NCBI GenBank assembly: GCA_947629335.1
Contig: CANRDI010000001.1
Location: forward strand, 62,001-126,000
Direction: 5' to 3'
Origin: an uncultured Clostridia bacterium
Lineage (GTDB): Bacteria; Bacillota; Clostridia; Oscillospirales; Ruminococcaceae
DNA length: 64,000 bases
Positions 12,571-51,720 of this stretch are shown here, piece after piece. The notes beneath the pieces were generated by a model. That model saw only the letters and a list, made by a program, of their open reading frames with translations, ran no database searches and was not told the DNA's origin. Position numbers and translations under genes: made by a program. Each line of letters begins with the position of its first letter. Position 1 is the stretch's first letter.

Positions 12571-12606
12571 TAGATCTTAGTTGACCTACTGAAAGGAATG
12601 GTCCCT

Positions 12607-14637: not shown

Positions 14638-15312
14638 TTATTTAATTAGCCTTTTTAGGTCATTTTTATCCTGAGTTTTCAGTATCTTTAAAAGATGTTC
14701 ATATATTCTTTCGCGCGATTTTTCGGGTTCTTCGAAATAAGCATTTGAAATATAATTTTCTCCGAACATTTTTTCAGGCGTTGTATATTCTGCTACTCCC
14801 CAGCCGTATTCGTTCCCGTTTTTGTCTTTCATATATACGAAATCCGACGTATTTATATATGTCTGCATTTGCAGTCGGGTAATTACCGTTTCAAAACCGA
14901 CATTTTCGCCCTTGTGATAATTCAGTGCGGATTTTATTTTTTTTGAAATAACGCTGCCGTTTTTGTATACAATATCATAGACGTCCTTGTCCTTTTTGGA
15001 AACTAAACCGTCCTCATAGCGCGCGTCAAAATCATAGCCGTCCCGACGGTAGTTTGCGAGAATGGGAAACCATTCTTTGCTGACAAAACCTGCCTTGTTT
15101 GCGAAGAATTTTCCGTAGACACAGCGCCCGTCCCGCGCGATAGGTCCTTTCCATTCCCAAGGACCGTCCTTGTCGGGTGTAAACCATAATTCACCAGGAC
15201 AGTTTTCTTCTATCGAAAAACCCTCTATACTGTTGGCAAAGAAGGGGAGAAAACCTATTTCCTCCGTGATTTTTATTATATCTTCCGCACTTTTTATCTT
15301 CCTGAATTTCAT
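14638..15312 (-). CDS. Conserved hypothetical protein, possibly AlkZ-related
   Basis: 224 residues from the ATG at 15312, chosen because ggagg lies 8 bases upstream; a start further out at 15351 lacks such a site. It has no signal peptide or membrane segment. Aromatic residues cluster in the middle (WEWKGPIARDG...FFANKAGFVSKEWFP), a pattern seen in proteins labelled AlkZ-related in Clostridia, but I see no catalytic motif and do not assign a function. It stands alone, with 117 bases to the lipoprotein gene downstream and the CoA operon promoter divergent to it. Confidence 0.6.
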   Translation of the reverse strand: MKFRKIKSAEDIIKITEEIGFLPFFANSIEGFSIEENCPGELWFTPDKDGPWEWKGPIARDGRCVYGKFFANKAGFVSKEWFPILANYRRDGYDFDARYEDGLVSKKDKDVYDIVYKNGSVISKKIKSALNYHKGENVGFETVITRLQMQTYINTSDFVYMKDKNGNEYGWGVAEYTTPEKMFGENYISNAYFEEPEKSRERIYEHLLKILKTQDKNDLKRLIK

Positions 15313-15453
15313 AAATTTTTCCTCCGATATTTTCTTAATACAATTATACATTTATTTATCAAAAATTTCAAGTATAAAAAAATGAGATTTCTGTTATATG
15401 CGGTATTTATTCCCCGCCGACGCCGTTATTTTGCAAAATATGGAGGATACCTC

Positions 15454-27642: not shown

Positions 27643-30132
27643 TCAGTCGTCCTCCGTCAATATACTTTCGTCGTCCTCGGAGAATTCGGAAATGTTTTTA
27701 TCTATTCTTTCGCGCAGAGCCGCCGCGTCTTCGCTGTCAAGCTGTGCGCTTACTTCTCCGTGAATTATTCCGCTTATTTTCGCGTCAACAATTCCGCTGA
27801 TATAACCGCGAACACGTCCGTTTACATGAATTAGTCCGGAAGTATGATGTATGCGGTCAATCTTTTTGAGAGTAAACGAGGTCTTTTCGATTATCGCGTC
27901 GCCAAGCAGCAATATCTGAGGCAGAACGCACATTACAAGTACTATTGAAATAAGTGTTCCGCGTCCGAGACACTCTCCGACTGCCGATATAGCGACGTCA
28001 GAGGACATAAATCCAATCAGAAGACCCGCAACGGAAAGTATCATTCCAGAAGTGATAATGGTCGGAAATGCCTGATTAAGCGTTTCTACTATAGCTTCTT
28101 TCGGTGACATTTCGCGTTTTAGTTCGGAATATCTGCTGGAGATAACTATAGCGTAGTCGATATTCGCGCCCATTTGAATTGAACTTACTATAAGATAACT
28201 CAAAAAGAATATGTTTGTGTTTTCGACAGCGGGAACAGAAAAGTTTATCCATATAGCTCCCTCGATTATTGCCATAAGAAGTACCGGAAGTCCCGCAGAT
28301 TTAAATGTGAATACAAGTATGACCAAAACGAAAAGCGCCGATAAAATGCTTATCATAAGGTTGTCGTCTACAAACGACGTTGACAGATCGAGGTCGCTTG
28401 TTGAGTCGCCGACAATAAACGAATTGTCTTCGGGATAATATTTGTACATTATCTCGTGAAATTCTTTGAGCTTAGCAAAAGTTTCGTCGCCTTCCATAGG
28501 GAGGTTTGTTTTAATGAGCAAACGCGAATATTCGTCAGTTTTAAGCTGAAGTTTAGCGTCAGTCAGCTTTCCGTTAAGCTCGTCAAGCATTTCGGTCATA
28601 TCATTGTCAAGCGTTATAACTCCCGCTTCTTTCTGTTCGTAAACATAGTCGAACATATCTATCAGCGGCACGCCATAGTCCGAGATGTTTCCCATGAGCT
28701 TTCCGTAGTCCTCCTGCGACACGGCATAAGCCGAATACAAAACGGAAATGACCTCAACATCCATATCAATAAGCTCTGCGAACTGTCTTGGAGTGAGCGC
28801 GTCCGTCAGATAATACCCGTCAATTGCTTCGGTATTTGCAAGACCTTGCGTTGAATTTACGGCGGGATCTTCGGCGATCTCCATTAAAAGCCGCTGTTCG
28901 GATACATAATCGCCAGACGGCACTATCATTACCATAAGATTATCTACTTTGAAGTTGTCGCGGATTTTTTCCTCGGCAATCTGTGAATCATTTTTCTTAT
29001 AAGTAGTACCCGACGCATAATCGTAAACATAATTGCATTGATTTGAGAAAATAAATGCCGCTACCAAAACCACGACAAAGATCGGCGGAATAACAAAACG
29101 TGTTTTAACGTCCATTTTGCCGACAGCCGTAATATTCGGGACAAAGTTTCTGTGGTGTGTTCTGTCGATAAGTCCCGAAAAAGACATAAGCAGTCCCGGC
29201 ATAAGAGTAAATACCGAGAGTATGCTGAAGAAAATTGCTTTGATAAGAACAATGCCGAGGTCAAGTCCGAGCATAAACTGCATAAACATCATTGCTACAA
29301 GTCCCGAAACTGTTGTAAGACAGCTTGAAGATATTTCGGGAATAGCCTTGCTGAGCGCAGTTATAACCGCCATTCGCGCGTCGTGCGTAACGCGTTCTTC
29401 GGTATAGCGGTTGCACAGTATAATTGCGTAGTCAATGGCGAGCGCTAACTGTAAAACTACCGCGATCGAATTTGACACAAACGAAATTTCTCCGAGCAGG
29501 AAATTTGTACCCATATTGAGCAGTGCCGCCATACCGAATGTCATCAGCATAACGGGAACTTCCATATACGTTTTAGAAGTGAACAGCAAAACCGCGACAA
29601 CTATTACAATTACAATCACGACAACTATCTGCATTTCCGCGGCAATACTGTCTGCCTGATTTGCACCGACCTCGCTTGAAATATAAGTGTCATACGGTTC
29701 GACAAGCTCTTTAAGTTTGTTCATGGCGTTTTTAGCAATTTCGTCCTCAGCTTCGCCTTTAAATGTGACGGATATCATTGCCGCGCCGTTGTGGTAGTGT
29801 GCGTCGGTCCTGTCGATAACAGCCTCGGAAACGCCGTCTATTTCGAGTATCTGTTCTGCAATATTTTCGGCAGTTTCATATGTTACGTTATCTATCATAA
29901 CATTAGCCGTACCATATGTAATAAACTGCTCATTCATAAGCGTCAGTCCGCGTTTAGTTTCGGTGGTATCGGGCAGGTATGAAGTTATGTCGTTATTTAC
30001 CTTTGTCCATTGCATACCGAAAACGCAAAATATTGCCGCTAAAATAAAGAACAGAAAAAATCCCTTTCGCTTGTCTACAATAAGCGTCGCAACTTTTGTG
30101 ACAAAGCCTTTTTTCTCTTTTTCTTCGCTCAA
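27643..30132 (-). CDS. RND/MMPL family transporter
   Basis: 829 residues with a TTG start at 30132 behind aagaggtg. The layout is that of MMPL proteins: one membrane helix, a periplasm-like loop of about 130 residues, five helices with DYAIILCNRY (proton-relay region), a second helix and loop, then five helices ending in IDYAIVISSRY. The last 80 or so residues are cytoplasmic and include a short-period segment (HVNGRVRGYISGIVDAKISG) resembling a small beta-helix. MMPL proteins export lipids or hydrophobic molecules using the proton gradient. It is co-transcribed with the large coiled-coil protein, which may act as its outer partner; that is inference. Confidence 0.88.
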   Translation of the reverse strand: MSEEKEKKGFVTKVATLIVDKRKGFFLFFILAAIFCVFGMQWTKVNNDITSYLPDTTETKRGLTLMNEQFITYGTANVMIDNVTYETAENIAEQILEIDGVSEAVIDRTDAHYHNGAAMISVTFKGEAEDEIAKNAMNKLKELVEPYDTYISSEVGANQADSIAAEMQIVVVIVIVIVVAVLLFTSKTYMEVPVMLMTFGMAALLNMGTNFLLGEISFVSNSIAVVLQLALAIDYAIILCNRYTEERVTHDARMAVITALSKAIPEISSSCLTTVSGLVAMMFMQFMLGLDLGIVLIKAIFFSILSVFTLMPGLLMSFSGLIDRTHHRNFVPNITAVGKMDVKTRFVIPPIFVVVLVAAFIFSNQCNYVYDYASGTTYKKNDSQIAEEKIRDNFKVDNLMVMIVPSGDYVSEQRLLMEIAEDPAVNSTQGLANTEAIDGYYLTDALTPRQFAELIDMDVEVISVLYSAYAVSQEDYGKLMGNISDYGVPLIDMFDYVYEQKEAGVITLDNDMTEMLDELNGKLTDAKLQLKTDEYSRLLIKTNLPMEGDETFAKLKEFHEIMYKYYPEDNSFIVGDSTSDLDLSTSFVDDNLMISILSALFVLVILVFTFKSAGLPVLLMAIIEGAIWINFSVPAVENTNIFFLSYLIVSSIQMGANIDYAIVISSRYSELKREMSPKEAIVETLNQAFPTIITSGMILSVAGLLIGFMSSDVAISAVGECLGRGTLISIVLVMCVLPQILLLGDAIIEKTSFTLKKIDRIHHTSGLIHVNGRVRGYISGIVDAKISGIIHGEVSAQLDSEDAAALRERIDKNISEFSEDDESILTEDD

Positions 30133-30249
30133 GCAGTATCACCTCTTGTTTTATTCTGCATTAAAGCAGTGCTGTGTAAATATGGATAAATTTTCACGGC
30201 ATTTTATTTCCATATTCAACAATTATTTCACAGCATTTTTGTATAATAA

Positions 30250-30278
30250 ATTATATCACTCAAACACATGAATGTCAA
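30250..30278 (-). promoter_or_regulatory. Promoter of the MMPL/coiled-coil operon
   Basis: On the minus strand TTGACA (30278-30273), a 17-base spacer and TATAAT (30255-30250). The leader to TTG 30132 is about 110 bases. Confidence 0.82.
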
Positions 30279-30390
30279 GCAAGATTTTAACAATTAAGCG
30301 AAAAAATTGTATTATTATGCGATTTATAGCACTCAATTTGTGTTCTAATAAACAGTTTGTAGCAAAATGTTTTGCGCTCATTTAGAGGTT

Positions 30391-30455
30391 AAGAAGTAAG
30401 AGGAAAGAAAAAAGCGGACAGCATTTCCATTCATCGACCGCCGCGCAAGCGGCGG
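30391..30455 (+). ncRNA. Structured intergenic repeat, copy A
   Basis: This segment matches 38321-38397 along its length (aagaagtaagagg, then aagcNgacagc, tttcc-attc) and ends in a 7-bp hairpin, CCGCCGC-GCAA-GCGGCGG (30438-30455; GCAA is a GNRA tetraloop). Copy B has a different stem sequence but the same pairing and loop. The GNRA loop is on the + strand. It could be a small RNA, a processing element or a dispersed repeat. Confidence 0.5.
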
Positions 30456-30460
30456 AACAT

Positions 30461-30521
30461 AAAGTTTTAGAAAGGGGTGTGGGGGAAACCTTTTTCAAAA
30501 GGTTTCCCCCACAGTAACTTT
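30461..30521. repeat. Long hairpin element downstream of the nucleotidase gene
   Basis: A 16-bp perfect stem (30479-30494 with 30497-30512) lies inside an outer AAAGTT/AACTTT pair (30461-30466 with 30516-30521). It lacks a strong U-run on either side, so it is more like a dispersed intergenic hairpin element than a plain terminator, though it may still end the minus-strand transcript. Confidence 0.6.
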
Positions 30522-30541
30522 AAGTTTTCCGAAAAAAACGC

Positions 30542-33500
30542 TTAACGTCTCAGCTTTTTCTTTGCAAGAACCGCCGCAAGACAACCCGACAGCACGATAA
30601 ATACAACTACAATTGTCATATCAACGCCCGTATCGGGAACGTCAACTGCGCCTGCTTCGGTCAATATCGCGCGTATTTTCGCCTCGTAATCGGCTGCTGT
30701 TTTTTCAAGCTCGTCATAAGCTGCGCTTACAGCATTAAGATTGCTTGTAAAGCCGAATTCGCCGTCTGCTGTGAGAACTGCCAAAGCCTCTCGACTTAGA
30801 TTGTCTACAGATGACAAATATTCGCTCAGATCTACGCCGTTTTTCTTCTCCAGAGCTTTTATCGCGGCTTTTACATCGTCCGCCACAGCATTGATCCTGC
30901 GCTGCGCATTCGCTTCAAACAAGCCCTTTGAAGTATTGTCAAACAAGTTTTGAAGCTCCTCGCAGATATCGTCAATTGAGTTGTAATCATCGATTTTATC
31001 ACGAACTTTCTTTGCTGCATCTTCGCTCGCAGATTTGAGAAGCTCTCTTGTGCTGTCAAATTCTTCTTGTGTAATTTGATCGAGCTTATCTTGGTATTCA
31101 TTTACCAGCTCGTCATATTCTTCAAGCGCATACTTTTCTGTCCACAAAAGCGTATCTTTGAGCCACAACTCGTTTAAAGCGTCTTCAACCTCGTAGATAA
31201 GTTCATCTACCGCTCTCCATTCGGCGGCGTTTTTGTCGCTTATTATCTTCTCGGCGGCTTTGATATTCTCGTCTAACAGCTTGAGAAAAGCCGCTTTGTC
31301 GCTGTCCGAAACATAATCAAGAAGTTCTGCAAATTCGGTTGCATTTCTCTCAAGGTCGGGCAAATATGCTTTCGCATAAGCGAGATTTACAACGCCCTTG
31401 TAGGTCTCGGAATTTTCGGCAATTTCCTCCTTGGATTTCCCCGCAATCTCATCTCTGACAGCCTTTATCGCTTCTTTGACATCTTTTACGCCCTCGGCTT
31501 TTTCCTCATCTGTCAAGTAAGAAAAATTTTCAATGTCATCGGTGTAAATTTCTTCGCACGCAACAAGCCACGCTTCAAGATATTCCGCTTCGATTTCACC
31601 CTGATATTTGTCTACTATGTCAACGAAAGCGTTAAAAATATCGTTTGCGGCAACATCTCCCTCGAAATCTTCTGCCTTTATCGCGTCAATTGCCTTTTCT
31701 GCTTCAGCCTTTATGGCTTCAGCTGCGGCTTTCACGGCGCTGCGGTCCTTGCCGTCCGTTTCCTGTGCCAGTGAAGCATATCTGTTTGCGTCGTCCGCCG
31801 TGCCCGCGACCATACCTTTGCCGCAAGCAGCGTTAAGTGCTGCCCACAATTCATAAACTTTCAGCACGTCCGCTTCATAGATCTCGTTTTGCTTTTCAAT
31901 GTCCGTCGCCGCTTCAACATCTTTAAGCAGCGCGTCAAGCTCATCACAAATGCTCTTCAGCGCTTCTTCGGTCTTGTCATAATTTGAAAACCAAATCGCG
32001 TTATTGCCGATTTTAGTGCTGTAATATTCCTTCTGCTTTTCAACATAGGATTTTACAACGATTTTGTTGGCGTCGACCATAATCGCGTCAATCGCGTCAA
32101 CTCCCGCTTTAACAGTGTCTCTTGCAGCTTTCACATTTCCCGCTTCAATTTTTTGCAAGTTTTCTACCGCTTCATTATACGCGTTATCGAGCTTTTCGCA
32201 AATGTCCGCAATGTCATTTTCCGAAAGCGCCCCGTCAGCGTTTTCTTTGACGCCTGCTTTATAAAACTCGTATTCTTCATTGAAATACAAGATTTCGTAC
32301 ACAAGTTCCGCTCTGTCTTTAAACTCATTGTACAGCTCATCTGCTTCGTCGTAAGTCACGACATTTTCAATCTCCGCAAGCGCGATATCTTTAAGTCCTT
32401 TCGTTACGTCAATACACTTTTGTATCATTTCCTTGTCGCTGTAGTTGAAATATTCGTTTATATCGTCAATATTGCGCTGTGCGTATTTCTCGATTTTCTC
32501 CTTGATTTCAGCTTTATAGTCGTCTATGTTTATCCCCGCAAAGCCGAGATGATAATAGCCGTCCGTTGTTGTGACGGTGCCGGAACCGGAGTAGTTGTTT
32601 ACATAAACCGGAATATCTTGGTTCATGGCTTCTTTAAGGCTGATTGTGTGCGCGCCTTTTTCAAGCGTTAAGACAATTTTCCCGTCCGCATTTGTTGTTA
32701 CCTTGGTATTTTTCCCACCGTCAATGCTTATCGTAAATTCTGATTTGGCAGCAGGAGTGCCGTCCGAGAAAGTCACGGGAATTTCAACCTTATAAGTATC
32801 GGGCGACTTGTCGTTTGCAATTTTAATGCGCGGCTCGCCGCTGTCATAGGAGAGAGAACCGTCTTTCGTGCAGGACAGTATGTACTCCATAACTATCTGA
32901 TCTTCGCCGCCGAGCTCGCCGTCCTTTTCACCCTCGGAAATTCCCGCGAATGTTCCGACATAGTTGTTTGTGGCAAGAAGAAGCATTGTTAAATTGTCCG
33001 AAAGGTCAAGTTTCGTGCCGTCAGCAAGCGTTATGTCAACTACCTTTGCGCCCTTTGTTCCCGCGGGGTCGTAAGTATAGCTGAAACCGCTTACCTGCAA
33101 AAAGCTGCCGCTTACTTTTTCTCTTAAAAGCAATCCCGTTTCGTCCTGCCCTGTCATAAACTTAAGACCGTCTTCAAGCGCCGTGCGGAGCATTTGCGGC
33201 GTGACTTGGTAGACCTCGACCATATTTCCGTGGTTGAAAGCATTCAGTACATCGCCGCGCGTTACAGTTCCTGCGGGCAATGTCTGACCAATACCGCCGC
33301 CGTTTTCAACTGCGATAACGGGAATATCATAGCCGTTTTGCTCGGCAAATTCTTTCGCATAAGCTGCAAAAGCGTCCGTCACAAAATCGCCGTAGGGCGT
33401 TTCAACTATGCGCGACTCCACATAATCATAGTAAATGTATCCGCCCCAAAGCGGAGTATCGTTTTCGCAAAGCTCCTGTCCGAGAACGTCTTTTTGCTTT

Positions 33501-34441
33501 GACTGAATGTCCGAAAGCGCCTTTTCAACATCGGCTTTCTTTGTCGTTCCGTCAGCGGTGAGTTTATATTCCGCAGCAGCCGCCTTGTTAAGAACCTTGC
33601 ACGTCGCCGAAACATCATCTCCGTTGAAGGTGATTTCAACCATTCCGATATTTACAAACTGCGTTCCCGTCTGGACAATCGGAATGTTTATCGAATCTCT
33701 GGTGTATGTATCTTGCTCGACGGTATGACTATGACCGTCGATAACTGCCGCCACTTCTTTAAGCTCATCGTCCGACAGAATGTCAAGGAGCTGTTCGCTT
33801 GTGGCTGGAACTGCTGTTTCGTTGTTGCCAAGGTGGCACACAAGAATGATAGCGTCCGTGTTGTCCTTTAAAGCTGCTATCTGGTCTTTCACCGCTGTTA
33901 TCTCATCTCCGAATGAAACGCCGCTGAGCTTTGCGGGATTGGTTGAAGTCGCGGTTTTCGTGGTGGTGATACCGACAAAGCCTATCTTTTTGCCGCCTAC
34001 TTCAATTATCGTATTGCTTTCAAGCAGGGAACTTCCGTCTTTCTTAACGTTTGCGCTGAGAATAGGAAAATCCGCTGCTTCTTTGAGCTTTAAAAGCTGC
34101 TCCGTTCCGTAATCGAACTCGTGATTTCCCGCCGCCATAACGTCATAGCCCGCGGCGTTCATCATTTCGATAACGTCAAGACCCTGTGAAATTGTCGCAA
34201 AGGACGCTCCCTGTACTGCATCGCCGGCATCTACCAGGAGCGAGTTTGCTGTTGACGCTTTCATTGCGGCAGCCTGCGCCAGACCTATGGCTGTTTCGCT
34301 TGCGCCGACAATGCCGTGAATGTCGTTTGTCGTGAAGATGGTTACTACTGTTGAAGTATCCGCAAATACTCCCGCCGGCAGCAGCGAAAAGACCATTGCC
34401 GCCGACACGAGAACCGACAATATTTTCTGTTTAATTCTCAT
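30542..34441 (-). CDS. Cell-wall-anchored 5'-nucleotidase-family protein with long helical stalk
   Basis: 1,299 residues from ATG 34441 (aggag site); an upstream in-frame start at 34528 lacks one and would bury the signal peptide. After the signal (about 1-28) comes a calcineurin-like phosphoesterase domain with TNDIHG, DAGDAVQG, GNHEFDYG and HSHT, then a 5'-nucleotidase C-terminal domain (VENGGGIG, RGDVLNAF). Residues of about 560-1,250 are acidic helices rich in Lys/Glu/Ala, probably a stalk. The C-terminus is VPDTGVD, a hydrophobic helix and KKKLRR, a sortase signal with Val instead of Leu. It likely releases phosphate or nucleosides from nucleotides at the cell surface. Confidence 0.88.
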   Translation of the reverse strand: MRIKQKILSVLVSAAMVFSLLPAGVFADTSTVVTIFTTNDIHGIVGASETAIGLAQAAAMKASTANSLLVDAGDAVQGASFATISQGLDVIEMMNAAGYDVMAAGNHEFDYGTEQLLKLKEAADFPILSANVKKDGSSLLESNTIIEVGGKKIGFVGITTTKTATSTNPAKLSGVSFGDEITAVKDQIAALKDNTDAIILVCHLGNNETAVPATSEQLLDILSDDELKEVAAVIDGHSHTVEQDTYTRDSINIPIVQTGTQFVNIGMVEITFNGDDVSATCKVLNKAAAAEYKLTADGTTKKADVEKALSDIQSKQKDVLGQELCENDTPLWGGYIYYDYVESRIVETPYGDFVTDAFAAYAKEFAEQNGYDIPVIAVENGGGIGQTLPAGTVTRGDVLNAFNHGNMVEVYQVTPQMLRTALEDGLKFMTGQDETGLLLREKVSGSFLQVSGFSYTYDPAGTKGAKVVDITLADGTKLDLSDNLTMLLLATNNYVGTFAGISEGEKDGELGGEDQIVMEYILSCTKDGSLSYDSGEPRIKIANDKSPDTYKVEIPVTFSDGTPAAKSEFTISIDGGKNTKVTTNADGKIVLTLEKGAHTISLKEAMNQDIPVYVNNYSGSGTVTTTDGYYHLGFAGINIDDYKAEIKEKIEKYAQRNIDDINEYFNYSDKEMIQKCIDVTKGLKDIALAEIENVVTYDEADELYNEFKDRAELVYEILYFNEEYEFYKAGVKENADGALSENDIADICEKLDNAYNEAVENLQKIEAGNVKAARDTVKAGVDAIDAIMVDANKIVVKSYVEKQKEYYSTKIGNNAIWFSNYDKTEEALKSICDELDALLKDVEAATDIEKQNEIYEADVLKVYELWAALNAACGKGMVAGTADDANRYASLAQETDGKDRSAVKAAAEAIKAEAEKAIDAIKAEDFEGDVAANDIFNAFVDIVDKYQGEIEAEYLEAWLVACEEIYTDDIENFSYLTDEEKAEGVKDVKEAIKAVRDEIAGKSKEEIAENSETYKGVVNLAYAKAYLPDLERNATEFAELLDYVSDSDKAAFLKLLDENIKAAEKIISDKNAAEWRAVDELIYEVEDALNELWLKDTLLWTEKYALEEYDELVNEYQDKLDQITQEEFDSTRELLKSASEDAAKKVRDKIDDYNSIDDICEELQNLFDNTSKGLFEANAQRRINAVADDVKAAIKALEKKNGVDLSEYLSSVDNLSREALAVLTADGEFGFTSNLNAVSAAYDELEKTAADYEAKIRAILTEAGAVDVPDTGVDMTIVVVFIVLSGCLAAVLAKKKLRR

Positions 34442-34764
34442 ATTTACTCCTTTTTCTGTTTTTAAACACTCGCCAAATTTTTGAATAAAGCCTGCGTTTA
34501 TTTTATCTGCAAGAGCCGACAGCCCCATTTCAGCTCTTGACTTTTACATATTTCGCCTCTTTCCCGAAATTACATAGTATTTTATAATTGTATTATATCT
34601 GTATTATATCACAATTCATTTTATTTTTCAATAAGGCAATTGTAAAAACATATGTTTTTTATTCAAACCAATTTTTTCCATTTTTGGCATTTTCCCGCTT
34701 GTAAATTAAAAAATAGTAAAATATAAAGTTGCATTTTTTGTTGCATTATTGCAGATTTATGCTT

Positions 34765-34793
34765 TTGACTGCTTTGGGATTTGCTGCTATAAT
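34765..34793 (+). promoter_or_regulatory. Promoter of the ClpP/VirD4-like operon
   Basis: TTGACT at 34765-34770, a 17-base spacer, and TATAAT at 34788-34793, 41 bases before the ATG. The rest of the 34442-34833 interval, which separates divergent genes, is AT-rich with several TATAAT-like boxes facing the nucleotidase gene but no clear -35. Confidence 0.82.
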
Positions 34794-34833
34794 AAAAGCG
34801 TAAACGAAATCAATACGAAAGGATCTGAAAATT

Positions 34834-35427
34834 ATGAGCATAAGCTACATTGACGAAACATCAAGAGGAACCCAATCTTTTCCCGTTGACGCACTGCTTT
34901 TGACAGAAAGAAAGGTGTTTATTGAGGGCATGATAGACGAAAATGCCGCGAGCGAATTTACGAGGAAGATGATGTTTCTTTCGCGCAGCGACGGACCTAT
35001 TGATATTTACATAAGCAGTCAGGGCGGGAAAATTGAATCGGGACTTGCTATGTACGATATTATACAGGGCTGTAGGTGTAAAATAAATATGTACTGCATC
35101 GGAAATGCTTCAAGCATGGCAGCCGTACTGTTTGCGTCGGGGCAGAAGGGAAGACGCTTTATTCTCCCTCACAGCAGCGTTATGATACACGAGGCTATCC
35201 TTCAGGGAGATATAAGCGGCTCGGCAACTTCCATACGCCGCTTGTCCGACTCCATTATAGAAACGCGTGACCTTGTAAACAGTATACTCGCAAAGCACAC
35301 GGGAAAAACGCTCGAAGAGATAAACCGCTCCACACTGTTCAATAATTTTATGAATGCAAAAGAAGCCGTAGCATTCGGGATATGCGACAAGATAGTAAAA
35401 TCGGTTTTTGAAAAGGAGAATGTATAA
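34834..35427 (+). CDS. clpP: ClpP-like serine peptidase with Asn in the catalytic triad
   Basis: 197 residues, ClpP length, with the handle and head regions conserved: YISSQGGKIESGLAMYD, GNASSMAAVL with catalytic Ser (about 94), PHSSVMIHE with His (about 119). The position of the catalytic Asp is Asn (about 170, in STLFNNF). Listeria ClpP1 also has Asn here and is active mainly with a partner, so this is not necessarily dead. It is co-transcribed with a VirD4-like ATPase, not with clpX or tig, and overlaps it by one base. It may be a secondary ClpP or a peptidase dedicated to its neighbour's substrates; both are inference. Confidence 0.85.
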   Translation: MSISYIDETSRGTQSFPVDALLLTERKVFIEGMIDENAASEFTRKMMFLSRSDGPIDIYISSQGGKIESGLAMYDIIQGCRCKINMYCIGNASSMAAVLFASGQKGRRFILPHSSVMIHEAILQGDISGSATSIRRLSDSIIETRDLVNSILAKHTGKTLEEINRSTLFNNFMNAKEAVAFGICDKIVKSVFEKENV

Positions 35428-36716
35428 TGAATAATTTTAAATTTTCGGAAGACGTCATATGCGCGGATAATAAAGCCGCAAGCAGGGAATTTGCGAATAG
35501 CAGCGTTATAATAGCGGAAAACTGTCGGTACAGTCTGAATGATGTAAAAACACGAATTAACAACAATATCCTTGTGACAGGCGGCAGCGGCACGGGAAAA
35601 ACCTCGACCATAGTTGTACCCAATATATTGCAGGCAGTCGGAAGCTACATTGTGTCTGACCCGAAGGGAAATCTATGCCGAAAATACGGGAATTATCTCC
35701 GCGAAAAGGGGTATAATGTCGTAAATATCGACCTTACTGCTCCCGAAAGATCGACCCGCTATAACCCTTTAAAATTTGTAACTACTCCTCAGGACATAAT
35801 GAAAATAACAAACATCATCGTAGACAGAAAAGCCTCGGAACGTTCCTCGGCAGATCCGTTCTGGGATTCTATGACGACAATTCTGCTTTCATCAATAATA
35901 GGCTATATGATTGAAACGCAGTATACGCCTTTTAATTTCAGCGGCATACTTAAACTTGTGCGCGAGGGAGAAAGAAGCGGGTCGTATGATGACAATGAAT
36001 ACCGTTCATCAAAACTTTTCAAGCGTTTTAAAACGCTTGGCAGCAAATCACCCGACAGCTGGGCTTGCGGTCAGTATGATAATGTAAATACCGCGCCGAA
36101 CAAGACGTATGATACAATACGTTCTACTCTTGTAGCAAAGTTTTCAAACTTCGACACGCCCGAACTTCAGGAAATGATGTCGGCAAACGATTTTGCATTC
36201 AGAGATATCGGAAGCGAAAAGACCGCCGTTTTCGTCACCATAAGCGATACGGACCGTTCTATGGACGCTCTTGCCAATATCTTTTTCACTCAGGCAATGC
36301 AGGAGCTTTGCAGATTTGCAGATGAACAGCCCGACAGCAGACTTCCCGTACCCGTTCGTTTTTTCCTTGACGACTTTGCGACGAACTGTAAGATAGAAGA
36401 ATTTCCGCGAATGATCTCTACCATACGTTCAAGAAGCATTTCCGTAATGCTGATGATACAGGCGGAGTCGCAGCTTATAAATGGTTACGGATCCGACTAT
36501 GCTACGATAATCGCAAACTGCGACACATATGTTTACCTCGGCGGAAACGATTACAACACGGCGGAGTCAATAGCAATGCGCTGCAATAAGCCTGTTCAGC
36601 AGATATTGTATATGCCTGTGGGGAACTGCTGGGTATTCAGACGAGGTTCACAGCCTGTTTATACACGCACAGTGCTTCCGCCTGCAAGAACAAAAGATAC
36701 AAGAAGCAATGACTGA
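35427..36716 (+). CDS. VirD4/TraG-like ATPase without membrane anchor
   Basis: 429 residues. The P-loop is TGGSGTGKTST (about 51-61), then SDPKGNLCRKYG as in TraG/VirD4 coupling proteins; Walker B reads FFLDDFA where the family normally has DEF; IRSRSISVMLMIQAESQL is the next family motif. The N-terminal membrane helices of coupling proteins are missing, so it should be a soluble hexameric motor. Its ATG overlaps the clpP stop and its aaggag site lies inside clpP. No relaxase or other type IV secretion gene occurs anywhere in the window. It may be a conjugation remnant or a motor working with the peptidase. Confidence 0.85.
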   Translation: MNNFKFSEDVICADNKAASREFANSSVIIAENCRYSLNDVKTRINNNILVTGGSGTGKTSTIVVPNILQAVGSYIVSDPKGNLCRKYGNYLREKGYNVVNIDLTAPERSTRYNPLKFVTTPQDIMKITNIIVDRKASERSSADPFWDSMTTILLSSIIGYMIETQYTPFNFSGILKLVREGERSGSYDDNEYRSSKLFKRFKTLGSKSPDSWACGQYDNVNTAPNKTYDTIRSTLVAKFSNFDTPELQEMMSANDFAFRDIGSEKTAVFVTISDTDRSMDALANIFFTQAMQELCRFADEQPDSRLPVPVRFFLDDFATNCKIEEFPRMISTIRSRSISVMLMIQAESQLINGYGSDYATIIANCDTYVYLGGNDYNTAESIAMRCNKPVQQILYMPVGNCWVFRRGSQPVYTRTVLPPARTKDTRSND

Positions 36717-36727
36717 GCTGAAAAAAA

Positions 36728-36759
36728 TAAGCCGCTTTATCAAAGCATAAAGCGGCTTA
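36728..36759. terminator. Terminator between the VirD4-like and NSS transporter genes
   Basis: A 13-bp stem (36728-36740 with 36747-36759). A7 on the left gives a U-run for the minus-strand NSS gene; the right side is less T-rich. Confidence 0.8.
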
Positions 36760-36778
36760 AAATATTAAACTTCAATTT

Positions 36779-38176
36779 TTAAAAAACACCGATTGATTTT
36801 ACGAAAAGCACAGCAAGCATTATCGGCGTCACAAACTTTATCATAACGATATATAAAGTTTTCCTGCTCATTTTACAGCCCGTTTTCTCAACTTCTTCAA
36901 TTACCGTGTTCGGTTTTACTACCCAGCCTATAAGTATACAGGTCAGTATCGCCACGATCGGCATAAGCAGATTGTTGCTGATATAATCCATTATGTCGAG
37001 TATCTGCGCGGTTGTTCCGTTCGGGAGCTTTGCCTCGAAGTAGAGGAAATTATATCCGAAGCATACCAGAAGCGCCGCTATAAGTGTTATCATTGTTTCG
37101 ACAGTCGTAGCTTTGTTTCTCGACATACGAAGTCCGTCCATAAGGCAGGAAACTACCGCTTCCATTATGGAAACCGCGCTTGTAAGAGCTGCAAAAAGGA
37201 CCATAGCGAAGAAAAGTATCCCGACAAATCTTCCTATATCGCCCATTGCGGCAAATACCTTAGGCATTGTCACAAACAAAAGCCCCGGTCCTGAGGATGA
37301 CATTCCGTCATTTCCGTCAAACGCATAGACCGCAGGGATTATCATAACGCCCGCTAAAAACGCTACTAATGTGTCAAATATCTCTATGCGGTTTATTGAC
37401 GTTTTAAGGTTTGCGTCGTCGTTTACATAAGAACCGTATGTTATCATAATTCCCATAGCGACGCTCAGACTAAAGAAAAGCTGTCCCATTGCGTCAAGAA
37501 GCGTAGTGAAAAAACTTTCCGGAGTTATATTTGAGAAATCGGGAATAACAAATTTTCCCAGACCCTCAAGTCCCGTTCTTGTTATTCCGCTTTCATCTGT
37601 GTGCGTAAGCGTAAGGGAGAAAACCGCAATAACTATCACCAGCAAAAGCAGTACGGGCATAAGGACTTTTGACATAGCCTCAATTCCCTTATTTACACCT
37701 CTGAATACGATAAATGCGGTAATTGCAAGAAAAATGACCATCATTATAACAGGCTCGGTTTCGTTTGAGATAAAAGAGGTGAAATAGCCATTCTCCGCCG
37801 CGGTAATGCCGTCGCCTTTAATAAAAACAAACAGATACTTTATCACCCAGCCGCCTATTGCGCAGTAATACGGAAGTATTATTGCAGGAACTATGCTCGC
37901 AATAACTCCGAGCGGCTTCCACTTCGGTTTAAGTCTGCCGTATGCGGTGAGGGGGCTTTGTTTGGTCATTCTTCCGATAGAAATTTCGGTTATAAGAAGC
38001 GTAAATCCGAATGTTACCGCGAGTATTATGTATATAACGAGAAACAGACCTCCGCCGTCTTTTGCCGCAAGATAAGGAAACCTCCAAATGTTTCCGAGAC
38101 CTACAGCGCTTCCTGCCGCAGCAAGTACAAATCCAAGCGACCCTGTGAAAGAATGTCGCTTTGCAGTTTTATCCAT
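36779..38176 (-). CDS. Neurotransmitter:sodium symporter (NSS/SNF) family transporter
   Basis: 465 residues with about 11-12 membrane helices. The N-terminal helix 1 motif AAAGSAVGLGNIWRFPYL is diagnostic of the LeuT-type NSS family and supplies the sodium and substrate sites in the unwound part of the helix; the helix 6 region (SLSVAMGIMITYGSY) is also typical. Bacterial members import amino acids with sodium. It is a single gene with a ggagg site, ended by the bidirectional terminator above. The substrate cannot be told. Confidence 0.93.
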   Translation of the reverse strand: MDKTAKRHSFTGSLGFVLAAAGSAVGLGNIWRFPYLAAKDGGGLFLVIYIILAVTFGFTLLITEISIGRMTKQSPLTAYGRLKPKWKPLGVIASIVPAIILPYYCAIGGWVIKYLFVFIKGDGITAAENGYFTSFISNETEPVIMMVIFLAITAFIVFRGVNKGIEAMSKVLMPVLLLLVIVIAVFSLTLTHTDESGITRTGLEGLGKFVIPDFSNITPESFFTTLLDAMGQLFFSLSVAMGIMITYGSYVNDDANLKTSINRIEIFDTLVAFLAGVMIIPAVYAFDGNDGMSSSGPGLLFVTMPKVFAAMGDIGRFVGILFFAMVLFAALTSAVSIMEAVVSCLMDGLRMSRNKATTVETMITLIAALLVCFGYNFLYFEAKLPNGTTAQILDIMDYISNNLLMPIVAILTCILIGWVVKPNTVIEEVEKTGCKMSRKTLYIVMIKFVTPIMLAVLFVKSIGVF

Positions 38177-38320
38177 AAATTACCTCCAATTCAAAGTATA
38201 ACCTTATTTTTTATTATAACATAATAAAATAAAAAAAGCAACAGCATTTTTCACATAAAAGACTAATATGTGAAAAAATGCTGCTGAAATCGGCTGTAGG
38301 GTACAAAGAGAGGTTCCTTT

Positions 38321-38397
38321 TAGAAGTAAGAGAGGTAAGAAGCAATAATTGAAAGCCGAACAGCGCTTTCTCATTCCTACCGTGCCGCAAGGCACGG
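38321..38397 (+). ncRNA. Structured intergenic repeat, copy B
   Basis: The partner of 30391-30455. The hairpin is CCGTGCC-GCAA-GGCACGG (38380-38397): same 7-bp length and same GCAA loop, different paired bases. It lies in the 351-base gap between the NSS gene and the macro-domain gene. The remainder of that gap (38398-38527) holds no gene I can recognise. Confidence 0.5.
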
Positions 38398-38527
38398 CAA
38401 GAACGTTGTTCGCTTGCTCCAAACTGTGAAAAAACCAAACTGTGGTAGAACCTGCCGTTCCCTCGCTCACAAGATTTTTGCTTTCGCAAGTTTCGTGCCA
38501 AATCCGCTTGATTTGTTGAAAACATCA

Positions 38528-39535
38528 TTATTTCCGGTATATGAAATTGTCCTTTGATGTTGATTTTTTTGCGGAGGGAGTTTTAATGGTCTTGTCAAGG
38601 GAAAAGTCGGGATTTTCGTCAAAGAGCCTTTCGTTTATCGCGTCAAATTTTGTAATTCCCGAATGAATGAGAGTTTCAACAAGCCTGTCGAGCTCGTCTT
38701 CGGGATATTGATAACCTGCGCAGCGTATAAATTCAAAACGTTCCTCATGTGATAATCCCATGCCTATAGCGAGCGCAATTACGCGGTGTTTCTGAGGCTT
38801 TCTTATTTTTCCGCTCCTGAATTTGCATATGCTGCCTTTGTCGTATCCTATCTCGTTCGCCAGCGCTTCAACGTTGTCTATATATTTGTTCAGATATTCG
38901 TTCAGCCGCTTCCTGCAAAACTCGCTTTTTTCAAGTCCTGAGCTTCTTACGGCATTTTCCAAGTTTTTGTCAAATCTGTAGTATTCGCTGAAATCAAGTG
39001 ATTTTTCTATGGATTTTGTTTCGCTTTCATTTGCAGAAATTTCATATTCACTTGCTTGCGGCGGTTTTACAAGATATACCATAGTGCAAGATTCCGAGCT
39101 TCTGAAATGAACGCCTATTGTTTCCGACATACATTTTTCAAACTTATCTCTGTATCTCGTACCTCCGGGAATGGGAAATGAAATGCTCTTTATACTGTTT
39201 TTGTCCGTATATGAAAGAACCCTAAGACAACATCTGCTTACAATAGAGCGAATTGTCTTTTCACTTTTTATGTCGTCGGGGAATGAATTCGGAAAATGCG
39301 CTAAAATTATATTTTTACAGCCTAAAGGCTTTCCGTCTATAACTTTTATCCCTCCGAGCGGAAGATCTTTTATCTCTCTTATTTGGGTATGCAGACTGCC
39401 AACTGTCGCCATTCTCCTCGGAGTTCCGATCATAGCGTCAAATCTGAATGACTTTGCTGTTATAGGAATGACCATTACTTCCGAAATATAGTCTAAAATA
39501 TCGCCCGATATAATTTTCAGCTGCAAAACTTTCAC
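38528..39535 (-). CDS. Macro-domain protein with C-terminal helix-turn-helix-like domain
   Basis: About 335 residues. Residues 1-160 resemble a macro (ADP-ribose-binding) domain: IISGDILDY at the start, LPLGGIKVIDG, and the FPIPGGTRY loop. Residues of about 205-305 form a helical domain, ALANEIGYDKGSICKFRSG then HRVIALAIGMGLSHEE, as in the XRE-like tail of a widespread Firmicutes macro protein. It may be an ADP-ribose-responsive regulator; this is inference. The start is uncertain: GTG 39535 is very close to its cggg site, whereas TTG 39526 is better spaced from ggggtg. Confidence 0.78.
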   Translation of the reverse strand: MKVLQLKIISGDILDYISEVMVIPITAKSFRFDAMIGTPRRMATVGSLHTQIREIKDLPLGGIKVIDGKPLGCKNIILAHFPNSFPDDIKSEKTIRSIVSRCCLRVLSYTDKNSIKSISFPIPGGTRYRDKFEKCMSETIGVHFRSSESCTMVYLVKPPQASEYEISANESETKSIEKSLDFSEYYRFDKNLENAVRSSGLEKSEFCRKRLNEYLNKYIDNVEALANEIGYDKGSICKFRSGKIRKPQKHRVIALAIGMGLSHEERFEFIRCAGYQYPEDELDRLVETLIHSGITKFDAINERLFDENPDFSLDKTIKTPSAKKSTSKDNFIYRK

Positions 39536-39596
39536 CCCGTTTCGTTTTGAAATTGTTCACGAGCAATTTTTATATGCCTCGTTAATCTGCATATTC

Positions 39597-39625
39597 ATTA
39601 TACAATTTTATATTCAAGTTTTCAA
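39597..39625 (-). promoter_or_regulatory. Promoter of the macro-domain gene
   Basis: On the minus strand TTGAAA (39625-39620), a 17-base spacer and TATAAT (39602-39597). Confidence 0.75.
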
Positions 39626-39854
39626 GTCCTTTTTAAATAAGCTGTAAATCATTTTGATTTTCACAACATTTTTATAACATTTATAACAATGTGTTTATAA
39701 TTGTTATGCGTTTTTATTAAAATAGAGCAAAAATTTTTGTGTAATAATACAAAATTAAAAAAATGTTATAGCGTTTGATTTAAAATAGTTTTATAATATA
39801 TTACGGTGATTATATTATTGATTATTTTGTAAATACAAAGAGGTAACAGGCAGA

Positions 39855-41549
39855 ATGAAATTGCAGGACAAAGACGAACTTTACGGTTTTATTGAAAACA
39901 CGCTGATGAACGATTTTGTACAGCTCTTTCGTGTAAACATACAAAGCGGGGATTTTGAGTTTTTAAAAGTTTCTCCTAACATACATATTGATCCGAATGA
40001 ATATTCAAATATATTTGACTACGCAAAACAGGTCGTGAAAAGCGGATACATTTCGGCGGACTATGCAGACGGGTATCTGAGATTTATAGACCCCGACACA
40101 ATTCGCCGCAGAGTTTTCGGCGGAGAGCGGAGAATTGTCTACAGATACAAGCGGACAGACGGGAAATGGGATGTATTCAGCATAACGTCGCCGAAAGATT
40201 GTTCTCCCGAAAACCCTTGGACGGTGTTCAGCATTATGAATTCCGACGCAGGCTCTACCGCGCTTACCGAAGCAATGACAACGCTTTCCGTTATTTATTA
40301 CAAAATATTGAAAATAAATCTTACGACTGATTCTTTTGAAATAATAAAAGCCGACAGCAGCGAGCATATTGAAAACAACGTCCAAAAAATCACGGATTGG
40401 TTCAGGCTTTTTGCAGAGCTTGGAAACGTACACGAAGAAGACCTCGACATGTACAGAAGTTTTACGGACGCGGAAAAAATAAAAGAGCATTTTCGGACGA
40501 ATAAAACGCGGCTGAGCTGCCGTTATAGGAGAAAGCATAAAACGGGTGGGTATCGCTGGGCGCAGATGGATATTGTCGAGGGAGAGGGTTATTCTGATGA
40601 TGATGTGAGGCTTTTGCTTTTTGTAAAGGACGTCCACGAAGAACATATGTCAGAGCTTCGCCACCGCGAGGAGCTTGTCGATAATTTCAACCGCGACGCG
40701 CTTACGCTTCTTTATAACAGAAACACGTTCAATGACGACGTTGATAAAATAAGGAAAGAAACAGACGGGTCTGTAACTTGCCTATATGTTGACGCAAACG
40801 GACTTCACGAGATAAATAACGCTTTGGGTCATCAAAAAGGCGACGATATGCTTTGCTCCGTCGCGGACGCGCTTAAAAGCTGTTTTCCCGACGACAGGGT
40901 CTATCGCATTGGCGGCGACGAGTTCGTTATGCTCAGCAGGCGGCTGAACTCCGCAGAAGTTGCAAAAAGGGCAAAAGCCGCGGGGAAAAAGCTTGCGCGG
41001 CTGAATTATGCAATATCTGCGGGAGTTGACAGCGGCGCGGGCGCTGATATTTCCAAAATTGTAGACAATGCCGAACAGGCAATGCGCAAAAATAAAGAGG
41101 AATACTACAAAGGTTTTGACAAAGACCGCAAAAAACGCGTAATGAACGAGGAGCTTGAAAAAATGCTCACCGAAAAGCGCGATGAAGAATATTTCCTCGG
41201 CATTATCGGGGAAATGTACGCGGGAGTTTATTTCATTGACATAAAGCGCGATTCTCTGCGGTATATATTCATACCAGAATATTTTAAGGGGCTTCTTGAA
41301 GAAGCGTCGTTTTCGGTTTCGCGCGCGCTTACAATGTATGCAAACAAGTTTGTGGAAAGCAAGTATATAGACGGCTTCTGCGACCTTTTAAACTTTGACG
41401 AGCTGTCAAAAACGCTCGACAAAAAGGGAAATGTTGATTATCTGTACAAGAAGAAAAACGGAGCGGAAATGGAGCTTAAAATACTTAAGACAAACGCCGA
41501 TTCCGACGGCAAAGAGGAAACAATTTGGATCTTTAAGCGCCCCGAATAA
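39855..41549 (+). CDS. GGDEF (diguanylate cyclase) protein with PAS-like domains
   Basis: 564 residues, no signal peptide or membrane helix. Two PAS-like sensory units occupy about 1-135 and 140-275, the GGDEF domain about 280-425, and a third PAS-like unit about 435-564. The catalytic region is intact: LYVDANGLHEINNALGHQKGDDML and the RIGGDEF motif. The usual inhibitory RxxD five residues before GGDEF is absent (FPDD), so product inhibition may be lost. It should make c-di-GMP in the cytoplasm in response to an unknown ligand. It is a single gene, divergent from the macro gene across a 319-base AT-rich gap, and followed by a terminator. Confidence 0.87.
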   Translation: MKLQDKDELYGFIENTLMNDFVQLFRVNIQSGDFEFLKVSPNIHIDPNEYSNIFDYAKQVVKSGYISADYADGYLRFIDPDTIRRRVFGGERRIVYRYKRTDGKWDVFSITSPKDCSPENPWTVFSIMNSDAGSTALTEAMTTLSVIYYKILKINLTTDSFEIIKADSSEHIENNVQKITDWFRLFAELGNVHEEDLDMYRSFTDAEKIKEHFRTNKTRLSCRYRRKHKTGGYRWAQMDIVEGEGYSDDDVRLLLFVKDVHEEHMSELRHREELVDNFNRDALTLLYNRNTFNDDVDKIRKETDGSVTCLYVDANGLHEINNALGHQKGDDMLCSVADALKSCFPDDRVYRIGGDEFVMLSRRLNSAEVAKRAKAAGKKLARLNYAISAGVDSGAGADISKIVDNAEQAMRKNKEEYYKGFDKDRKKRVMNEELEKMLTEKRDEEYFLGIIGEMYAGVYFIDIKRDSLRYIFIPEYFKGLLEEASFSVSRALTMYANKFVESKYIDGFCDLLNFDELSKTLDKKGNVDYLYKKKNGAEMELKILKTNADSDGKEETIWIFKRPE

Positions 41550-41595
41550 TTGCCCGTTATGCGGATAAAATCATTTTGTGCATTAAATTAATGAA

Positions 41596-41630
41596 AAAAC
41601 CGACTTTGCTGTATTGGCAAAGTCGGTTTT
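41596..41630. terminator. Bidirectional terminator after the GGDEF gene
   Basis: A 14-bp stem (41596-41609 with 41617-41630), A-rich on the left and T-rich on the right, between converging genes. Confidence 0.88.
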
Positions 41631-41657
41631 TGCTGGTTAAATATACATTATCACTTT

Positions 41658-42593
41658 TTAATTTGCCGAGCTTATTTCAAGACCAAGATCCTGCTTGAAA
41701 ATATTTTGTACGGCAACTATCACTTCTCGCTGATATTGTTCTTCTTCCGTTTCATTGTTCTGCTGTCTGAGGTTTGACATCTCTTCTTTATACTGTGCCT
41801 CTTGCTGAATTTCATCAGGTGTCGGGATAAAACGAAAATGTACAAAACCGGTGCTGTTTGCAATCATCTCGAAACATTCGGGTTCATTGCGGCGAATATC
41901 AAACACGCAGTCGTAAAACTTGATTTTCGGGTTTTCGTTTATCCACCTGTCGCAGACATTCGGGAAATCCCAAGACATCACCATTTCCTGCATTTCGTCA
42001 AGAATTTGATTTAATGCGTCTGCGGTGTATGGCATTACGTTTGCGCCGATTAAACCTCGTATTCCTTCAATCAGTTCAACATAGAACAAATCTGCGTATT
42101 GACCGCCGTCGCGGTAATGAAAAAAGCTGCTTTTTGCAGGCTGACTGCAAATTGCGATAACATCGCGGTATACCGCTTTCACGGCGTCGTTTGCGTATTC
42201 TCTTGTGTGAGTTACGGTATTTATCAGTGCGCGCATATCCAAATCCGTTTCCTCGTCGGTGTCATGTACAAAAGCATTTTCATTGCCCTTTAACGCTTTA
42301 CCCAGACTTTTAATAAAGCCTTCGGTAGTTCCGCATTCTTTGAAACCGTCAAACATATTTCGCTGTATTTTCTCGCCTTCCGTTCTGATGAGATTGTAAA
42401 ATGTAATTAGCTTTGCCTTTTGAACGCACGCTTTTTCGAGCAGATCCGGCTGATTTAATTCGCATTCCGAAAGAGCCTTGAAGATTTCAAGGCTGTCCGC
42501 CTCATACAGATGATCCCGCTCCCCCAAAAAGCGTATCTTCTGACGCTTTATTAACTCCGGGTCATTCACAAATTTCTTACACATACCGTTCAT
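41658..42593 (-). CDS. Hypothetical protein, helical, with glutamine/glutamate-rich C-terminus
   Basis: 311 residues, not recognised. It has no signal peptide or membrane segment. The first 100 residues are helical and charged; the centre has an aromatic stretch (SSFFHYRDGGQYADLFYVELIEG) and Cys residues at several places; the last 50 are a predicted coiled coil rich in Gln and Glu. ATG 42593 follows aaagga. It lies 128 bases downstream of the LRR gene on the same strand; a stem with GACTTG/CAAGTC between them may separate the transcripts. Confidence 0.6.
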   Translation of the reverse strand: MNGMCKKFVNDPELIKRQKIRFLGERDHLYEADSLEIFKALSECELNQPDLLEKACVQKAKLITFYNLIRTEGEKIQRNMFDGFKECGTTEGFIKSLGKALKGNENAFVHDTDEETDLDMRALINTVTHTREYANDAVKAVYRDVIAICSQPAKSSFFHYRDGGQYADLFYVELIEGIRGLIGANVMPYTADALNQILDEMQEMVMSWDFPNVCDRWINENPKIKFYDCVFDIRRNEPECFEMIANSTGFVHFRFIPTPDEIQQEAQYKEEMSNLRQQNNETEEEQYQREVIVAVQNIFKQDLGLEISSAN

Positions 42594-51220: not shown

Positions 51221-51720
51221 ATGGCACTATTTGAAAAAATGATAGTTAAAAACGAAATAGATTATGAAAAGTTATCTAATTAATTAGCTAAAGCAATTGA
51301 TAAAAATAAAAGTGATATTGATGAAGATATTCTTGTTAATTCAATAGAAAAAGCGCTAATCAATGTAAAAAACAAGGAAAAGGATGATAATAATAAATTG
51401 ATAATGACATCAAGTTTTTTTCAATTTTTCCTATTTATATTTTAGGCCTTTTATCGATATTATCATATATTTTTGCAATTATAGCTATATGTCTTGCTTG
51501 TTATAATTTTGTCGGTTTTACTAACGAGTTTTGGGTATATACTTCAATTGCTTTGATTGGTTTATTTTTAACATTTTTATCTGGTGGAGTTGCTCATGAA
51601 ATTTATCATATAAGAGATTTCAATAGAATTCTTGCAATTACTTCTACTTTTACTTCAATTATAGCTGCAATAATTGCAATAGCAACGCTTATTATTACTT
51701 ATAAAGGAATGAACTTATGA
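51221..51720 (+). pseudogene. Broken small membrane protein gene inside the hsd operon
   Basis: It starts at ATG 51221 with aaggag, and stops in frame at TAA 51281-51283. The same frame then continues for about 45 residues, and a second shift near the T7 at 51415-51421 leads to a hydrophobic stretch with about three membrane helices ending at 51720. Restored, it would be about 165 residues: a soluble charged N-terminus and a membrane C-terminus (FVGFTNEFWVYTS, GGVAHEIYHIRDF). The stop overlaps the hsdS start (atga). I do not recognise the family; it was probably an accessory gene carried with the restriction system. Confidence 0.65.

Follow-up and report, generated by a model that had tools for sequence, protein, structure and literature searches.

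A ClpP paralogue and a soluble VirD4-like ATPase recur as a gene pair in Oscillospiraceae and Lachnospiraceae

What does a ClpP peptidase do when the gene beside it encodes a relative of the VirD4 coupling proteins of conjugation? The question is raised by two genes in a stretch of 64,000 nucleotides (the window) from an uncultured Clostridia bacterium (assembly GCA_947629335.1, contig CANRDI010000001.1, positions 62,001 to 126,000). A sequence-only reading of this DNA had described a ClpP-like peptidase fused in an operon with a soluble VirD4/TraG-like ATPase, and had proposed a protease machine in which such a motor stands in for ClpX or ClpC. Both open reading frames were recovered (Table 1), with P0001 matching ClpP (Pfam CLP_protease, 3e-48) and P0002 matching T4SS-DNA_transf (Pfam, 3e-48). 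The one-base overlap that had been claimed is there, the TAA stop of clpP and the ATG start of the ATPase gene meeting at base 35427, so that the genes lie in an operon as described but are not a gene fusion; judged from this overlap, their translation may well be coupled. A shared promoter had also been proposed, and the strongest of the 16 promoter-like matches in 34400-36900 (shuffles average 6.6) is indeed upstream of clpP, at 34765-34793, and is conserved at the orthologous locus in genome G201, from a different species. The hairpin downstream of the pair is, by count, not above chance (one found, shuffle average 2.3), and no structured RNA scored above threshold in 30000-42000. The claim that no Clp unfoldase is nearby also stands: the housekeeping tig-clpP-clpX cluster of this genome, with clpP between the trigger factor and ClpX genes, is approximately 228 kb from the pair.

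Table 1. Features of the ClpP-ATPase locus in the window, with the longer clusters of other loci given in the coordinates of those loci.
Feature	Position	Strand	Remark
Candidate operator, GTTGCAT-N5-GTTGCAT direct repeat, 5' of the -35 box	34728..34746	+	exact match
Promoter-like TTGACT-17-TATAAT, TG before -10 (extended -10)	34765..34793	+	11/12 matches
ClpP-like peptidase, 197 aa, P0001	34834..35427	+	Ser94, His119, Asn170 replacing Asp
Ribosome-binding-site-like AAGGAG for the ATPase, within clpP	35413..35418	+	read from sequence
Soluble VirD4/CD1115-like ATPase, 429 aa, P0002	35427..36716	+	without TM-like stretch
Walker A GGSGTGKT, ATPase residues 52-59	35580..35603	+	
Walker B acidic pair DD, ATPase D315-D316	36369..36374	+	long relatives: DE
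Hairpin between the convergent ATPase and symporter genes	36728..36759	.	terminator-like on the - strand only
Macro-domain and HTH protein, candidate pair regulator	38528..39535	-	past the SNF symporter from the pair
Longer Lachnospiraceae-type clusters	L117 1384-7974; L130 2067-7930; L155 2097-7978		

Elsewhere in the window, two very similar genes resembling UDP-galactopyranose mutase (3685-4791 and 12598-13722) were seen by eye about 8 kb apart, the first of which seems different in its N-terminal glycine-rich motif. Type I restriction pieces at 51717-54749 comprise a specificity-domain fragment and a 549-residue HsdR-like N-terminal part, apparently incomplete, while a short serine-recombinase N-terminal domain (57950-58333) adjoins a tRNA-Pro gene (58446-58522) and is a possible element remnant. 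An AlkZ-related gene (PF24741) at 14638-15351 is more than 20 kb from the SNF symporter gene; AlkZ-related genes are near this symporter in genomes G094, G201 and G203, which implies that the neighbourhood has been rearranged.

The two genes are almost always found together. Among the matches listed at 1e-60 in a plain homology search of 197 family genomes, 19 are short ATPases; a partner-type ClpP is nearby for 18 of them, the exception being in G167. When GTDB genome contigs were scanned with a profile of the ATPase, and 80 of the 246 confirmed loci were kept by motif, 73 of these 80 had a ClpP within 2 kb on the same strand: at most 100 bp upstream in 61, 100-2000 bp upstream in six, and downstream, in swapped order with gaps of -29 to 376 bp, in the other six. 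No ClpP was found at seven loci, in three of which the contig begins inside the ATPase gene. The remaining four (L119, L129, L138 and L143) have usable flanks yet no ClpP on the same strand within 2 kb, L129 having only a 20.8-bit six-frame match; L143 is from a cultured strain, Butyrivibrio FCS014. A short ATPase without ClpP is also found in G167 and at the viral-contig locus L168, and in the second pair of G113 a 120-residue open reading frame lies between the two genes. Since some of the 80 loci are on the same contigs as pairs from the family genomes, merging leaves 86 distinct pairs.

In the controls, ClpP was present at none of 26 loci of long VirD4 proteins and the ATPase at none of 30 canonical clpP loci, with flanks mostly of about 1.5 kb, which rules out chance adjacency. 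The distance matrices of the ClpP and ATPase sequences are correlated (r 0.805, against a maximum of 0.275 in 2000 permutations), though common ancestry would be enough to produce such a correlation. What was seen of the distribution is narrow: the carriers are gut and rumen bacteria, most records being named as Oscillospiraceae, Ruminococcus, Lachnospiraceae, Butyrivibrio, Eubacterium or Clostridia; a single Muribaculum assembly with the pair may be mis-binned. Surveys of the class and the phylum gave the pair in 4 of 391 and 2 of 398 genomes respectively, which are undercounts owing to a strict threshold and four candidates scored per genome. Cultured carriers include Ruminococcus flavefaciens Y1 (L144), Lachnospiraceae XBB2008 (L155) and Butyrivibrio sp. 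CB08 (L114, with swapped order). The pair recurs outside conjugative elements, so that the condition named in advance as refuting the idea, confinement to integrative conjugative elements, did not hold, and this recurrence, together with the near-constant adjacency, gives good support to a functional partnership of the two proteins, of which we are highly confident.

By score the ATPase belongs with the VirD4-like CD1115 family, exceeding the NCBIfam cut-off (324.5 against 250 bits). All the families that it matches at 0.001 are of the T4SS type, CD1115 being the best and the HerA family proper not being among them; there was no match to AAA+ families, and a profile of the short ATPases (A1) found one solved protein at 0.001, the coupling protein Cag5. 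The short forms are mostly of approximately 410-510 residues, against about 600 for the long forms, and are about 35% identical to long members. As had been noted for the ATPase of this locus, they lack membrane helices: a hydropathy window gave no transmembrane-like stretch in the 17 A1 ATPases, which include P0002, or in the ATPases of the 80 loci. Of the 26 long relatives 21 have one, and some of those that do not are possibly cut. The replacement of DE by DD in Walker B (D315-D316) likewise proved constant among the short ATPases. In the set of 80 this is circular, as the loci were chosen by a motif containing DDF; DD is however also found in the 17 A1 sequences and in L030, L168, L169 and L180, none of which was chosen by that motif, whereas all 26 long ATPases, taken with no motif filter, have DE.

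The two forms are separate lineages. In a quick, unfiltered tree a single branch (SH-aLRT 100) divides 90 short ATPases from 26 long ones, and a second tree, of 86 short and 21 long sequences, gave the same split (SH-aLRT 99). For the second tree and for the comparison of fixed residues the long sequences were limited to those containing DEF, with L172, L174, L175 and L177 left out, and DE in them is therefore circular; on this basis the residues that are nearly fixed in the short clade relative to the long forms include R277, D280, D316, T319, P397 and R405. Among the 79 sequences of the A3 alignment Lys58, Asp315, Asp316, Arg334 and Gln345 are present in every one, while the full Walker A pattern GxxxxGK[ST] is present in 65 and departs in 14. 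This argues for nucleotide binding throughout the short clade, with hydrolysis that may be weaker or altered in some lineages. A DD pair in Walker B may lower ATP hydrolysis, and in combination with the Walker A departures makes a strong processive motor doubtful in some lineages.

FtsK, HerA and VirD4 are one kind of ring P-loop ATPase, and the neighbourhoods of the pair bear on whether it is used in immunity. Apart from the pair itself, the genes most often seen nearby are those for HTH proteins, along with Macro. In Lachnospiraceae and related loci there are small XRE proteins, Ser/Thr kinases (nine loci) and FHA-like proteins (five loci, by eye). The longer Lachnospiraceae-type clusters of Table 1 run from an HTH gene through an FHA-like gene (by eye) and two Ser/Thr-kinase-like genes to ClpP and the ATPase. 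The kinase neighbours match the PADLOC models PD-T4-6 and mad6, which we read as generic kinase matches. Genes of the Hsp70 family were seen by two pairs, at L122 1716-3371 (Pfam HSP70) and L130 10283-11938 (by similarity). A PARG-like gene is 0.1-3.6 kb downstream of the ATPase in five of the 99 loci compared (L117, L123, L124, L152 and L154), that of L124 matching Pfam PARG; the background, measured in 100 genomes of the Oscillospiraceae family, is 23 copies, rarer than near the pairs. In L160 an ADP-ribosylglycohydrolase gene lies two genes upstream of clpP (4736-5623), and a similar gene was seen by eye in G201. The co-occurrence of Macro, PARG and ADP-ribosylglycohydrolase genes suggests an ADP-ribose theme, which we regard as a lead. 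Beside the second pair of G113, about 3 kb away, is a BpuSI-like restriction-modification gene (L051 13323-16964); this is the same pair that has a relaxase gene approximately 18 kb away.

These surroundings could belong to a HerA-like immune pair, in which a ring of the ATPase would detect or move incoming foreign DNA and a ring of ClpP would be the effector, its proteolysis killing or arresting the cell, with no threading of protein by the ATPase. The patchy presence of the pair, with empty sites in close relatives, is in keeping with such a system, as are the occurrence of two pairs in each of G094, G156, G063, G113 and G201, the variable HTH, kinase, macro and PARG neighbours, and the restriction-modification gene near one G113 pair. 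A ring ATPase stacked on its effector is moreover known for DUF4297-HerA, as described in an excerpt of PMC11291478. Against this, the ClpP gave no fit to any PADLOC model at 0.01, and the only match of the ATPase, to mad8, is weak (8.8e-7), so that a known defence system was rejected; some loci also lie among core genes, for example the pair of Butyrivibrio CB08, seen by eye among pgk and tpi. Overall we consider an immune pair of this kind rather unlikely, although it deserves to be weighed seriously. The likeness to DUF4297-HerA and other HerA-effector pairs is in the arrangement, two adjacent genes for a P-loop ATPase and an enzyme, with the ring of our ATPase presumed from its family; the differences are that the partner here is a ClpP peptidase and not a nuclease, and that the ATPase matches T4SS coupling proteins.

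The window ClpP scores 153.1 bits against the equivalog TIGR00493, below the cut-off of 308.6; the housekeeping ClpP of the same genome, with 298.2 bits, is also just under the cut-off, at approximately twice the score of its paralogue (152.5 bits in that comparison). Across 41 genomes the full-length canonical ClpPs score 294-345 bits and two fragments 280 and 236, followed by two unclassified matches at 226 and 207, three pair-linked proteins at 149-154, and the remainder at less than 60. When 86 partner sequences and 31 canonical ones were placed on a tree, in which a few long branches were flagged, one branch again divided the two groups (support 99). The catalytic serine and histidine are present in all 86 partners. 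The third residue of the triad is Asp in 76, Asn in nine and Glu in one; the window ClpP, with Asn170 alongside intact Ser94 and His119, has the replacement that had been noted, and Asn is a minority state and not a hallmark of the system.

The divergence of the partners is uneven. Scored at positions at least 90% conserved in the canonical sequences, and numbered by the genome's own housekeeping ClpP, they keep the canonical residue at 24% of positions in residues 1-28, 26% in 29-59, 57% in 60-126, 62% in 127-170 and 60% in 171-196. Residues 1-59, the most diverged part, carry the axial loop as well as a large share of the apical face, which in ClpP is turned towards ClpX or another ATPase. 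The axial loop is largely replaced, as are the H-pocket aromatic residue 83, which is mostly Ser, Gly or Ala in the partners, and Arg174, which is mainly aromatic or His. Further in, Asn117 is replaced by His in 99% and Gln124 by Glu in 94%, and the partners share the signature PHS.VMIHE. Tyr63, given as a critical pocket residue in an excerpt of PMC8182300, is retained in 64%. A peptidase whose chamber chemistry is kept while its docking side has changed most is what would be expected if ClpX were no longer the partner.

One might instead suppose that the paralogue enters a mixed ring with the housekeeping ClpP, served by AAA+ unfoldases, with the ATPase as an adaptor or passenger. The triad Asn of the window ClpP is shared with Listeria ClpP1, which, according to an excerpt of PMC5361862, lacks the usual chaperone-binding motif and alone forms mostly inactive heptamers, and a canonical clpP-clpX cluster is present in the genome. 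However, the Asn that is common to Listeria ClpP1 (PMC5361862) and the window protein is found in only nine of 86 partners, Asp being kept in 76; the surface presumed to face ClpX is where the partners have diverged most, and their near-constant neighbour is the VirD4-like ATPase. A mixed ring therefore seems improbable. A phage head-maturation ClpP was also rejected, the PHROG head-maturation matches of the window protein (best 1.4e-31) being weaker than those to ClpP proper, and no portal or capsid gene being recognised by eye in the window and the loci read. We know of no link between Listeria ClpP1 and a VirD4-like ATPase.

How expression of a ClpP-ATPase protease might be set is suggested, in the window's clade, by a gene for a macro-domain/HTH protein. 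Of the 29 rows of this clade, 20 have such a gene close to the pair; in 17 it immediately precedes clpP. Its profile finds a match in 22 of the 80 loci, which in 18 cases lies 700-940 bp upstream of the ATPase start, L153, L154 and L158 matching only partly. Pfam Macro is recognised in three relatives (E-values 2e-20, 4e-13 and 9e-17), with the window gene just under the cut-off. The five best matches family-wide are pair-linked, partly by construction, as four of the five are rows of the model itself; many genomes that lack the pair have weaker macro-domain relatives, often including an HTH part. Macro-domain/HTH-like proteins form a broad family in genomes where no pair was detected, for example at G180:C7:30030-31049. 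G201 has the pair on one side of the same SNF symporter gene and the macro-HTH gene on the other, and both are absent from the matching symporter site in G203 and G094.

The window, L088, L093, L095 and L096 have the direct repeat GTTGCAT-N3/5-GTTGCAT ahead of clpP, and all six exact N3 or N5 matches in 1.33 Mb (92 loci, both strands) are upstream of clpP in these five loci. An inverted form, GTTGC...TGCAAC, is found upstream of clpP in L048 (the same place as L094), L090, L091 and L153, and also inside genes at two sites (L091 and L098). Among 15 macro-HTH proteins, the five of the window's HTH subtype go with the direct form and the three of the L048 subtype with the inverted one; in the remaining seven neither form is seen, and L153 is outside the comparison. 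The numbers are small and the subtypes were drawn after the sites had been seen, but a match of operator form to HTH subtype ties the regulator to the promoter better than adjacency alone. No GTTGCAT operator was found upstream of the window's own macro-HTH gene. From sequence, the macro-HTH protein is a candidate regulator of the pair in this clade.

Pairs of an XRE repressor and an ImmA protease are a comparable switch, and the frequency of HTH genes, with Macro, among the further neighbours could be taken to mean that the ATPase has a DNA-related role, as regulator or translocase, and that ClpP does no more than trim or remove the adjacent HTH regulator. This we regard as very improbable, since the HTH type changes between clades and none is seen in some loci, while ClpP and the ATPase stay together.

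With respect to conjugation, the absence of relaxase and conjugation genes beside the pair that had been claimed was borne out. In its own genome the single relaxase match is on another contig (C16) and there is no CD1110-type VirB4 at 1e-30; in the 16 genomes with pairs, some of them incomplete assemblies, relaxase is absent at 1e-10 from nine and CD1110-type VirB4 at 1e-30 from 11. The closest relaxase is the one at the G113 pair (G113:C2:3352725). No relaxase or mating-channel family was among the 25 commonest of 122 Pfam families in the neighbours of the pair, a scan of 125 of 288 candidate genes from 42 of the 80 loci (L088-L135). Of the 1523 plasmid records matched, none reached 60% identity, the ten listed being at 31.8-35.5%; the phage matches, too, are all under 60%, with the ten listed at 31.3-34.4%, and plasmid or phage cargo was rejected on these identities. 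Sixteen loci came from a scan of viral contigs, among which L169 and L180 have the short ATPase with ClpP and L168 the short ATPase alone, and these three may be in a phage or island setting. That the pair is the remnant of an integrative conjugative element, to which the CD1115 score of the ATPase and the single G113 pair near a relaxase might point, is hardly credible and was rejected as a general account, given the controls, the counts of genomes without relaxase and VirB4, the plasmid identities, and an ATPase that has no membrane anchor, has DD in Walker B and forms a lineage of its own.

The reading that we prefer, and hold with moderate confidence, is of a dedicated and regulated two-component ClpP-ATPase protease system of Oscillospiraceae and Lachnospiraceae. 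The ClpP paralogue would form the peptidase chamber, and a soluble hexamer, kin to the coupling proteins but without their membrane anchor, would bind this chamber and use ATP to control it, whether as a gate that opens or as a feeder of protein substrates. For the window's clade we picture a macro-domain/HTH protein that would bind the GTTGCA sites in the clpP promoter and set expression, perhaps on sensing an ADP-ribose-type ligand, and probably under stress or phage attack. A physical ring-on-ring complex of the two proteins seems probable to us; ATP-driven threading of protein into ClpP is a tentative suggestion. The boldest form of the proposal, a compartmental ATP-dependent protease outside the AAA+ class with a soluble VirD4-type hexamer, recruited from conjugation, as its motor, a rebuilt docking face on ClpP and a macro domain acting as an ADP-ribose switch, is put forward only guardedly. 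The missing anchor, the retention of Ser and His and the divergence of residues 1-59 fit a VirD4-like hexamer replacing ClpX or ClpC. On the other side, no I/LGF-type tripeptide shared by the whole clade was recognised by eye in an evident loop of the A1 and A3 consensus, and there are also the DD pair, the Walker A departures, the loci without ClpP and the Asn of the window protein. Of the protease machine first imagined for this locus, the partnership stands, outside conjugative elements.

The pair falls outside both of its parent systems. Its ATPase is of the VirD4 CD1115 family (NF045973) by score, but has no transmembrane anchor, has DD for DE, is mostly shorter, and has ClpP beside it where no relaxase or mating channel was found. 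Its peptidase is ClpP by sequence, with invariant Ser and His and with Asp usually kept, but scores approximately half as high as the ClpP of ClpXP and ClpCP, and its operon has a T4SS-type ATPase gene in place of an AAA+ one. No description of the pair was found in the titles and beginnings of abstracts of the papers listed from the open-licence literature, subscription papers and preprints being outside this scope. What is new is the conserved pairing; we do not claim the mechanism as demonstrated.

All bacterial ATP-dependent proteases characterised so far have, to our knowledge, a motor of the AAA+ class. The smallness of the operon and the existence of cultured carriers make the question directly testable. 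Should the pair prove instead to be a defence system, the immune systems built on ring ATPases would gain a ClpP effector. If our preferred reading is true, evolution would have arrived at ATP-dependent proteolysis by a second route, through a conjugation-type motor bound to ClpP, and coupling proteins would be re-usable as protein machines.
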